NCBI GenBank assembly: GCA_022482925.1
Contig: JAKVOG010000010.1
Coordinates: forward strand, 1-64,000
DNA: 64,000 nucleotides
Source of the DNA: Selenomonas sp.
GTDB lineage: Bacteria; Bacillota; Negativicutes; Selenomonadales; Selenomonadaceae
Reading direction: 5' to 3'
The position numbers and the translations under genes are program-made. Shown piece by piece: positions 3,672-55,896 of the stretch (within the stretch, counting starts at the first letter, position 1; each line of letters starts with the position of its first letter). Under the pieces are notes generated by a model. The model was not told the origin of the DNA. It did no database searches and saw only the letters and a list, made by a program, of their open reading frames with translations.

Positions 3672-4995
3672 ATGTTACAGAAAATCAATGGTCATACCAA
3701 CCGGGCCTGCCGGCTGCTGAAAGACGCGGATCCGCGGGAGTTTTTCCCCCGCACGCTCGAATTCTCGCCACCAGCCCGCGGCACCTGGAACATCGTTCAT
3801 ACCGGCCTTCAGCTGCCGGAGGCACACCAGATCTATATCTGCGCCTCCGGCTGTCTTCGCGGTGTCATTCTGACTGCCGCTGAGCGCGGTGCTATGAACC
3901 GATTTTCCACCATCGAGCTCCTGGAAAAAGACCTCGTCCGCAGTGACAATGAGCGGCTGATCATCGACGGTGTCACCGATATCCTGCAGGGCCTGCCCAA
4001 GCTGCCGCCTGCTGTGCTGATCTTCACGGCCTGCTTCCACCATTTCATGGGCACCGACCTCGCCTATGTCTACCATGAGCTGCGCCAGCGCTTTCCCGGC
4101 ACGGATTTCGCCGAGTGCATCATGGATCCCATCCGGCAGACCCGCAGCATCACGCCGGAGGAGCGGCTGCGCCGCGAAATCTACCGTCTCTGGCGTCCAC
4201 GGCCACAGGAATCCCGGACCTGCAACATCCTGTCCGGCAACCTGCCGACAGATGCCACCAGCGAGCTTACACAGCTGCTGCAGACGAACGGCTGGACCGT
4301 CCGCGATATGACCACCTGCCACAGCTATGCCGAGTTCCAGCAGATGGCAGCCAGCTGTTTCAACATCTACTGCAATCCATTCGGTCATAAAGCCGCCCGC
4401 GACCTGAAGCAGCGTCTGGGGCAGGACTACCTGTTCCTGCCCCAGTACTGGCGCTACGACGAAACCCTGAATAACCTTTCCCAGCTGGCTGCACGCATCC
4501 ATGTACCATTGCCGGACTACCGGCCGCGTATCGCCGAATGCGAGCTGGCGCTCGATGCCCTGCATGAGCAGCTAGGAGACACGCCGATTGCCCTTGACTA
4601 TACGCTCACCTTTGCCCCCTTCAGCCTGGCGCGCCTGCTCTGTGAGCACGGTTTCCAGGTCTGCCGGATCTATGCTGACGCCGTTACCCCGGAGGATCGG
4701 GCCGATTTTGACTGGCTGCAGCAGACGCACGGCGGGATTGAGCTCTGGTCGACCAAGAACCCCGACGAACGGGTGACGCCGCGTGGCACCTCCGGGAAGA
4801 TGCTCTGCCTTGGGCAGAAAGCAGGCCTGGTTCAACGGCAGCCCGTATTTCGTCGAATTCGTCGAAGGTGGCGGCCACTATGGCTTTGATGCCATCCTGA
4901 GACTGGTCCGGGCCATGAGCCAGGCTTTCCTCATTCCGAAAGATACCCGTCAGATCATCAGCCGCAAAGGCTTTGGAGGTTCCTGCTGCCTATGA
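3672..4995 (+). CDS. Nitrogenase component 1-like protein A, frameshifted
   Basis: Member of the nitrogenase/oxidoreductase component 1 superfamily (NifD/NifK/BchN-like fold); substrate unknown. About 440 aa after correcting one extra base near 4828. Superfamily-like segments are IYICASGCLRGVILTAAERG, VLIFTACFHHFMGTDLAYVY and FAECIMDPIRQ, with Cys placed as in P-cluster or 4Fe4S ligation, and a C-terminal NGSPYFVEFVEGGGHYGFD. It starts at ATG 3672 behind AGGAC; the stop overlaps the next start (ATGA). It follows hypE by 28 bases in an evident operon. No NifH-like reductase is in view. It is not a canonical nitrogenase: none of the extended NifD signatures are seen. Function is unassigned. Confidence 0.75.
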
Positions 4996-54355: not shown

Positions 54356-54382
54356 TTAGCACTCTATATCTCCGAGTGCTAA
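54356..54382 (-). promoter_or_regulatory. CIRCE operator (HrcA site) before htpG
   Basis: Perfect CIRCE inverted repeat: TTAGCACTC, nine bases, GAGTGCTAA. It lies just downstream of the htpG -10, where HrcA repression would keep expression low until heat shock. Confidence 0.96.
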
Positions 54383-54394
54383 CGTACGATTCAT

Positions 54395-54423
54395 AGTATA
54401 CGACAGAAATGACAAAAAGTCAA
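54395..54423 (-). promoter_or_regulatory. htpG promoter
   Basis: Minus strand TTGACT (54418-54423), 17-bp spacer, TATACT (54395-54400): near-consensus housekeeping promoter, 13 bases upstream of CIRCE. Confidence 0.88.
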
Positions 54424-55197
54424 ACGCATACTTCGTAGCATCTAGGTAAACTGAAATAGGTCACTCAGTCCATCGAAGAAGCACCAAGGCTAGGTACGAT
54501 CAACCCCGCTCAGACAAAGTTCGGAGAACGAGTATATATAACACAGCAAAGGAGCGCTTAGTTCGAGGAAATTAGATCGCCGCGGGGGCAGCGCATAGCC
54601 AACATTCCGCTGAGGTAACCTGCTAGAAAAAATTTTAGGCTTTAATTAATCATTGAAAAAGCACTTAAACGCGCTTCGCTTAAACGAAAGTCTTTTTCAA
54701 GGAAGGGTGGTAGCCTAAAATTTTTTCCTTAACGCAGAACACCAAACGCTCCATTTATGGCTATGCGCTGCCCCCGCGGCTGGGCTCGATGTACCGATGG
54801 TTGCTTTTCTCTAAATCAGCTACATTGCGGGTTCTTCCATTGATGCTGAAATCCCACCAACCTGCTCGAACCGAACTAAAACCTACCGTCAGAAAGAGAA
54901 CCATTTAAAAGCCGTTACTAATCGACGGCGGGCGAGGGGAACACTATTTCTTTTGGCTGGAACGACTGCCATAGGCTGGCACGCCGTAGGGACCTGCTAG
55001 ATCCGTCGATTCGTTGCGGCGCCGTGGTACCGGCGCGTCAGCTAAGTAAATACTATCTTCTCAGGGCGGGACATTTAGTGCAGGACGAAAAAAATAGTTC
55101 CACCGAACCCCGTGCTGAGCCTGTGCCGACTCGTCACCTGTAACTTATCTTGCCAGCCTACCTCAACCTACCTCGTTTCTCTTCTGTAACTTCCAGT
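54424..55197. ncRNA. ORF-free block with large nested secondary structure, candidate structured RNA
   Basis: No ORF of 60 codons in any frame, in a window that is otherwise almost fully coding. Perfect inverted pairs: 21 bp (54580-54600 with 54759-54779), nested 15 bp (54627-54641 with 54712-54726), nested 9 bp (54653-54661 with 54692-54700), plus CTGC/GCAG extending the middle stem. Outside this arm: 9 bp (54920-54928 with 55003-55011), 7 bp (54561-54567 with 54865-54871), 6 bp (54470-54475 with 54795-54800) and a hairpin at 55019-55036. Some pairs cross, suggesting pseudoknots. Strand unclear; no strong promoter or terminator seen. Not recognisable as tmRNA, RNase P RNA, 6S or SRP RNA. Could instead be a mobile-element remnant. 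Confidence 0.5.
54580..54779. repeat. 200-bp nested inverted repeat
   Basis: Three concentric perfect stems of 21, 15 and 9 bp separated by asymmetric internal loops, the outer stem GC-rich (CCGCGGGGGCAGC...) and the middle stem AT-rich (AAAAAATTTTAGGCT). No target-site duplication flanks the outer stem. Confidence 0.92.
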
Positions 55198-55896
55198 TTA
55201 TGGGGTCAGTGACCAGAACAGTCCAAGGAATTTCCTCAAGCTGTCCGTCCAGATGAGAATGCCCAGCAAGATCATGAAAGCACCGGCTAACATCTGAATT
55301 TTGGGCAGATGCGCATATAAAGGACGCAGCCGGCTTAAATATTTCTGCCATACCACAGTCAACAGAAAAAATGGCAACGAGAATCCCAACGAATAAATGA
55401 ACAGCAACCAGGCCCCTACCCCAACCGTTGCCGTCTCACCCGCATACCATAAGATAGCCGCCAGAACCGGTCCGGTACATGGTGTCCACCCAACCGTAAA
55501 GGCCATGCCCAATAGCAGCGAACTGAACGGACCTGTAAACTTATGCCGCAGGAACGGACGATGCTCACTCAGCAACAGCTTTGACCTGATGACTCCCATC
55601 ATAAATACGCCCATAAGGATCAGCAGGACAGCTCCAATACGCCGTACGATATCCTGATACTCCCACAACCATCGTCCTGCAAAAGAAGCGGTAGCTCCCA
55701 TCAGGACAAACATCAGTATAAATCCCAGGATAAAACTGATTCCGTTCCGGTAAAGCTGCCACTTCCCCTGTTTTTCGCCGCTGCCCTGTGCCAGGATCAG
55801 CGAATAGGTAGGCAACATTGGCAGTACACATGGCGATGCAAACGAAATTAATCCTGCCAGAAATGCACCCAAATAAGTGATATTACTCAATTCCAT
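55198..55896 (-). CDS. ccdA: Cytochrome c biogenesis protein CcdA
   Basis: 232-aa membrane thiol-disulfide transporter with six predicted helices. Both conserved cysteines are present, in ISFASPCVLPMLPTYSLILA and TVGWTPCTGPVLAAILWYAG. Passes reducing power across the membrane to the thioredoxin encoded next upstream. No cytochrome c synthesis genes in view, so general periplasmic thiol reduction is more likely. Confidence 0.94.
   Translation of the reverse strand: MELSNITYLGAFLAGLISFASPCVLPMLPTYSLILAQGSGEKQGKWQLYRNGISFILGFILMFVLMGATASFAGRWLWEYQDIVRRIGAVLLILMGVFMMGVIRSKLLLSEHRPFLRHKFTGPFSSLLLGMAFTVGWTPCTGPVLAAILWYAGETATVGVGAWLLFIYSLGFSLPFFLLTVVWQKYLSRLRPLYAHLPKIQMLAGAFMILLGILIWTDSLRKFLGLFWSLTP

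Follow-up and report, generated by a model that had tools for sequence, protein, structure and literature searches.

Bacterial MITEs are non-coding, multicopy and intergenic sequences with terminal inverted repeats, and 0.6-0.8 kb is large for a MITE. REP and BIME sequences are dispersed extragenic palindromes with RAYT transposases, and attC is much shorter than the hairpin described below. In the available text of PMC8632094 the motif OTH-22-1 is described as attC-like. Among large structured RNAs, ROOL and GOLLD are encoded in phages and prophages, often near tRNA islands, according to the available part of PMC12286853. The nearest published kind, as far as the accessible text of PMC11109978 goes, is the class of 'mobile/repeat sequence candidates', which includes MRSC-65-2. 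That text marks such candidates by their inconsistent orientation, and its authors allow that the structure may matter as DNA. MRSC-65-2 is described there as a single long covarying stem, often present in dozens of copies per genome and found in diverse phyla, with a conserved UYCCGG repeat.

Here we describe a repeat found in a window of 64,000 nucleotides from Selenomonas sp. We hold, with rather more belief than doubt, that the stretch under study belongs to a new, dispersed family of MITE/REP-like mobile palindromic repeats that are non-coding and non-autonomous. Like MITEs, the unit is non-coding, multicopy and intergenic and has terminal inverted repeats; unlike them, it has a mosaic build, and neither a target duplication nor a parent transposon has come to light. 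It shares with REP/BIME the dispersed extragenic palindromes, but its hairpins are about 200 bp long and PF01797 (Y1/RAYT transposase) has no match in the source genome (assembly 89% complete), while five of 14 control genomes do match. A RAYT-driven REP was rejected on this result. ROOL, GOLLD and OLE resemble it as large ornate non-coding sequences; they differ in that about 30 copies of the present repeat lie on the source contigs and that it has no match in Rfam, phages or plasmids. The likeness to attC and OTH-22-1, so far as the available text of PMC8632094 describes them, is that a DNA hairpin, once folded, may serve for recombination.

With MRSC-65-2, as presented in the accessible text of PMC11109978, the repeat has in common a long covarying stem and many copies. 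However, TYCCGG occurs on the plus strand of 9 and on the minus strand of 6 of 87 representative hairpins, never twice per strand; here the mark is the hairpin tip, and the hairpin lies within a larger unit with terminal repeats. Size, two-hairpin units and the shared tip set the repeat apart from the mobile/repeat sequence candidates. Nothing recognisable as this repeat was found in the accessible parts of the literature searched, which included PMC2267715, PMC6429828, PMC12306157 and PMC2864571, although their supplementary tables could hold it as an unnamed candidate.

The locus between htpG and ccdA

An initial annotation, made from the sequence alone, had described about 770 bp without an ORF between htpG and ccdA. 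Both points are borne out: one flank encodes HSP90/HtpG and the other DsbD_TM/CcdA followed by a thioredoxin-like protein, and no ORF of at least 60 aa lies wholly inside the 762-bp unit (the longest in the list of ORFs of at least 40 aa has 47 aa). The three-tier perfect inverted repeat reported there is real, with tiers of 23, 16 and 9 bp in place of 21, 15 and 9. An inverted-repeat search gave a 23-bp perfect outer arm (54579-54601 pairing with 54758-54780) and a 36-nt inner pair at 78% (54626-54661 with 54692-54727). Reading of the sequence showed that the inner pair holds perfect tiers of 16 bp (54626-54641/54712-54727) and 9 bp (54653-54661/54692-54700). After mononucleotide shuffling of the 774-bp stretch (20 times), inverted repeats reached at most 8-14 bp. 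Minimum free energy z-scores for the 774-bp stretch were -4.2 on the plus strand and -5.5 on the minus strand, and on either strand none of 20 shuffles folded equally well. The limits 54424-55197 of the initial annotation are better replaced by 54443-55204, and the features of the unit are listed in Table 1.

Table 1. Features of the repeat unit in the window
Feature	Position	Strand	Basis
Whole repeat unit, 762 bp	54443..55204		Similarity among the 25 long copies starts and stops approximately here
Left terminal inverted repeat, here TAGGTAAACTGAAA, consensus TCGATAAACTGGAA	54443..54456	+	Aligned copy ends
Central conserved hairpin module, about 200 bp	54579..54780		Homologues in several Selenomonadaceae genera
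Near-invariant hairpin tip, here AACGCGCTTCGCTTAAACG, complement contains GCGAAGC	54668..54686	+	Tip pattern scans
Second region	54781..55145		Among the loci fetched, carried only by those of the source genome and G015
Right terminal inverted repeat, here TTCCAGTTTATGGG, consensus TTCCAGTTTATCGA	55191..55204	+	Aligned copy ends

No known motif had been matched to the stretch by the initial annotation, and Rfam agrees. A cmscan of the window against Rfam 15 at gathering scores returned one tRNA only, the region itself at E<=1 gave nothing beyond a miRNA model that scored far under its cut-off, and 18 relative loci had no match at their hairpins.

Two observations concern the neighbouring genes. 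Upstream of htpG and just outside the repeat unit, positions 54356..54382 (TTAGCACTC-N9-GAGTGCTAA) form what we take to be the CIRCE-like heat-shock operator of that gene. On the other side the right terminal repeat contributes the TAA stop codon of ccdA (55198-55200, minus strand). Small negative gaps show that a few further copies likewise stop at the edge of an adjacent ORF or within it, and the end repeat (TAAAC...) may at times give neighbouring genes their stops.

Copies in the source genome

The multicopy nature of the stretch was hidden from the initial annotation and is visible by a search of the source genome (2.94 Mb, 22 contigs), performed with positions 54380-55230 of the window. 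The search gave 47 matches, many of them pieces or self-complementary matches, which come down to 29 places with the window counted; a further one turned up subsequently, making about 30. Twenty-five of these places (window included) match over at least 580 bp and five are shorter. The 24 long copies besides that in the window are 80-95% identical to the query, and some copies are 98% identical to each other though they lie at unrelated sites. When the 25 long copies were aligned, similarity began and ended abruptly, with unrelated flanks. Across copies the unit measures 0.6-0.8 kb and its terminal inverted repeats about 14-20 bp, lengthened in many copies to GTTACAG/CTGTAAC.

Both ends were located in 19 of the 31 extracted sequences, and not every copy retains both; by eye, no target-site duplication was recognised. 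No clean empty site was found in five genomes searched with queries from 16 of the approximately 30 places. A gene-bearing element with the same ends was sought in the 89% complete assembly as well: there were no plausible paired ends among 20 further stretches, and the other end-like matches fetched were unpaired, so that no gene-bearing parent was found. These three results tell against a mobile repeat, as does the lack of a PF01797 match.

Two of the 25 long copies have a damaged left end and were left out of the alignment used to study block structure. The remaining 23 copies share blocks in differing combinations, with all four combinations present at 4492 of 6903 informative site pairs (a count made without a null for repeated mutation). 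About 90 bp of additional sequence is present in 4 of the 23, and end segments vary. One end segment, GGTCACAGAGAACCGTCCCCTGTGACC (L046 3039-3065 and L048 8914-8940), is itself a palindrome and looks like a separate small nested repeat.

Hairpin partners, which lie 32-183 bp apart, stay matched in these mosaic copies. Eighteen hairpin pairs changed on both sides; of their 413 gap-free cells in the 23 copies, 399 are Watson-Crick, and the others are 10 G-T (five of them at one pair), 2 A-C and 2 of other kinds.

Covariation in the central hairpin

The central hairpin was aligned across 31 homologues, 15 from the source genome, three from the related species G015 and 13 from elsewhere in the genus and family. 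Two-sided changes were found at 42 of 51 consensus pairs. Cells were paired in 95.0% of cases, compared with 74.8% after shuffling and at most 49.6% when the partner was slid. The internal loops and the tip of the hairpin are conserved as well. Judged from the alignment, the central hairpin is truly conserved, and its covariation points to constraint and not to decay.

Homologues and covariation were among the checks proposed by the initial annotation, and both were found: independent homologues are present in many genomes and can be aligned at the central hairpin, with the changes given above. That annotation had also named a decayed mobile element or an assembly artefact as what might undo its proposal. 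A mobile element comes close to the answer reached here, but the covariation does not fit decay. An artefact of assembly, or a chance palindrome, is already refuted by the independent homologues, which include those in the single-contig genomes G256 and G264, and by covariation far above the shuffled and slid controls; nothing was found in its favour, and we consider it extremely improbable.

Relatives in other genomes

Twenty-nine of 100 genomes (source included) matched the window query 54380-55230 at E<=0.01, several only at the htpG promoter part. Longer homologues, of 71-79% identity, are found in G015. The sites L040 and L044 of the source genome are occupied in this species by short forms, about 190 and 170 bp long, whose ends are similar; at L054 its copy is long and has the same orientation. 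Since some sites are also occupied in G015, the copies are old, which is a further point against the mobile reading. A stretch of 31 bases in the second region, 55006-55036 (TCGATTCGTTGCGGCGCCGTGGTACCGGCGC), is identical in both G015 copies that contain this part, whereas these copies are overall 74-79% identical to the window over the matched length. Positions 55006-55036 appear from this comparison to be another part of the unit under strong constraint.

In two places the G015 element has the opposite orientation beside one kept flank (L066 2496-2873 compared with L043, and L065 1634-2018 compared with L048). Inversion in place at the L043 and L048 sites is only suggested, because the other flank is without a match in G015. 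G015, G008 and G002 retain the region upstream of htpG at the window site and have no match to the element; as the right flank is also without a match there, this is not a clean empty site.

Units of about 560-690 bp in G018, G019 and G010 contain two central-type hairpins in opposite orientation and have different end repeats. Terminator-like ends made of an A-run and a T-run occur in some units of the S. ruminantium type, and no target duplications were recognised at the ends of S. ruminantium units in seven pairs examined. A terminator-like hairpin (GAAGCCTCCATAAG...CTTATGGAGGCTTC) adjoins S. ruminantium-type units (L069 853-894, L071 1491-1532 and L067 1511-1552); in L069 and L071 it sits within the A-run/T-run outer repeats. 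In Centipeda and in a Veillonellaceae MAG there are genes between two inverted hairpins. These were considered and led nowhere, their ORFs looking by eye like ordinary chromosomal genes.

Distribution of the hairpin tip

Among the matches listed, the tip AAACGCGCTTCGCTTRRACG was present in at least 116 stretches of named genomes. Its carriers among these matches were Selenomonas, Centipeda and Mitsuokella, together with records titled Lachnospiraceae, Eubacterium/Clostridia and Bacteroidales, which are mostly metagenome-assembled and open to misassignment; the taxa are a sample, taken from the titles of 36 of the 116 listed records. The pattern was absent from viral contigs. A slightly looser pattern was found in 29 of 108 genomes of the family (source included), with 1-61 copies each, and the reversed pattern, used as a control over the same 108 genomes, gave no matches. 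Among 149 genomes drawn from the phylum, two contained the looser pattern, namely the source genome and one member of the family.

At the loci fetched, the tip is enclosed by at least 30 nested pairs in 123 of 127 distinct windows of the Selenomonadaceae group and in 26 of 30 windows from other records (a division made from record titles), compared with 48 of 287 control windows. The sequences thus compared place the 20-base tip at the apex of long hairpins with differing stems in several families, and perhaps phyla. On the minus strand the tip contains GCGAAGC, which we take to be the very stable DNA mini-hairpin; a folding program applied to the isolated tip gave no support for special stability.

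Strand tests

Selection on an RNA structure should leave more G-U pairs than A-C mismatches on the strand that is transcribed. As a control, RNase P sequences of 30 genomes from the family were taken through the same steps and gave a ratio of 75:19 on the true strand and 35:76 on the other. A filtered G-T:A-C count, which keeps only pairs that are at least 70% Watson-Crick, gave 30:23 on the tip strand of the 31 homologues (Fisher p=0.004 against the 75:19 of RNase P), 33:34 in 26 sequences of oral Selenomonas type and 5:12 in eight of Clostridiales type.

Other counts lean towards one strand and disagree on which. Without filtering, the 31 homologues gave 40:22, a lean to the tip strand shared by the 18 hairpin pairs of the source-genome copies (G-T 10 against A-C 2). 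Single mismatches within Watson-Crick helices lean to the opposite strand (A-C 57, G-T 22), in part from positions common to related hairpins; they were counted in 87 representatives, to which 157 distinct hairpins had been reduced by k-mer similarity. The second region, 54781-55145, gave 50:53 when folded as the plus strand and 71:33 as the minus strand, each on its own predicted structure.

These data bear on the possibility that the repeat is a multicopy structured RNA. Its copies would be transcribed, and the hairpin would be a trans-acting RNA or the RNA component of a ribonucleoprotein that is mobile; the tip would then be where a protein binds. Several counts do favour one functional strand, as expected of RNA, though they differ in the strand, and conservation of loops on one strand is also typical of RNA; both facts weigh against a mobile DNA repeat. 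Strong covariation, conserved internal loops and tip, and the better folding of each strand than of its shuffles fit an RNA as well. The filtered tip-strand ratios fall short of that of RNase P, however, and the Rfam searches gave no match. Promoter-like sites are few (three in 1 kb, of which one lies beyond the unit; shuffles gave 1.2, sd 1.2), orientation in the source genome is not fixed, and the units of G018, G019 and G010 contain hairpins facing opposite ways. Altogether we regard a multicopy RNA as unlikely.

The initial annotation had proposed a large structured RNA of the OLE, ROOL or GOLLD sort. Its grounds stand, in that the sequence is large and ornate, is without an Rfam match and covaries at its centre, but a single large RNA gene is not supported, given some 30 dispersed mosaic copies with common terminal repeats and no consistent orientation to genes in the source genome. 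On balance, a DNA element is favoured over RNA, the pairing probably being kept mainly at the DNA level.

Genomic context

Copies in the source genome have no preferred orientation to the flanking genes (9/7/6/6 among the 29 places, with one undetermined). At the named loci hairpins are more often at the 3′ ends of genes: the upstream gene points at the hairpin in 68 cases vs 44 and the downstream gene in 59 vs 43. Gene directions in both counts, for the source genome and for the named loci, were taken from a simple longest-ORF caller. There is no common neighbour family, the largest cluster holding 9 of 214 neighbouring ORFs, and a neighbouring gene as shared partner was rejected on this count.

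The excess at 3′ ends could be explained by an extragenic palindrome that serves the host (REP/BIME-like, a bidirectional terminator or a nucleoid site), is retained because it acts on mRNA ends or on the structure of the chromosome, and spreads only by recombination between copies. The A-run/T-run terminator-like ends of some S. ruminantium-type units and the occupation of some orthologous sites in two species agree with this. The source genome shows no such bias, however, and presence in 29 of 108 family genomes is patchy. The unit is also far larger than REPs, whose size we take from general knowledge, PF01797 is absent, and copies that are 98% identical occupy unrelated sites. A host-serving palindrome therefore seems improbable to us.

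The position of dnaA was found in three genomes, and there the tip strand has the sense of the leading strand in a ratio of 44:22 (p=0.009). The count covers 37 of 39 tips of G256, 17 of 21 of G264 and 12 of 12 of G261, with genome lengths partly rounded and the terminus taken as opposite dnaA. This ratio fits exposure of the hairpin as lagging-strand template, but could reflect gene orientation.

Discussion

As the mobile DNA repeat favoured here, the unit would spread within the genome in the manner of a MITE, carrying a palindromic hairpin and a second conserved region. What the sequences show directly is the dispersal of the copies, their common ends, block exchange among them, matched hairpin arms and the tip at the apex of hairpins in distant bacteria. 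The lack of orientation bias in the source genome and of a common neighbour family, the presence of the tip in 29 of 108 family genomes, the filtered strand ratio, the leading-strand excess and the absence of matches in phages, plasmids and viral contigs also count in its favour. Copies would be moved by a recombinase or transposase supplied in trans and acting on the ends, on the extruded hairpin or on both. The hairpin would extrude from single-stranded DNA at the replication fork, and the complementarity of its arms would be restored at the DNA level, either by selection on the extruded hairpin or by template switching. Copies would be tolerated between genes, and the observed exchange of blocks would have come about through recombination.

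For the discovery of structured RNAs the repeat is a caution: mobile DNA palindromes can yield strong covariation. A cheap test, though not always a decisive one, is to weigh G-U against A-C changes beside a control RNA taken from the same genomes.

Within the loci searched, the tip motif matched no family of Rfam 15, and it did not turn up in the literature searched. Shared as it is, it would imply a recogniser common to these bacteria. A wider proposal, which we put forward tentatively and regard as rather doubtful, is that the tip marks a widespread undescribed class of DNA hairpins in Bacillota and perhaps Bacteroidota. One conserved enzyme would act on the single-stranded tip at the replication fork, stems would be free to vary while they keep pairing, and the long mosaic unit of the window would be a chromosome-resident carrier of this site.
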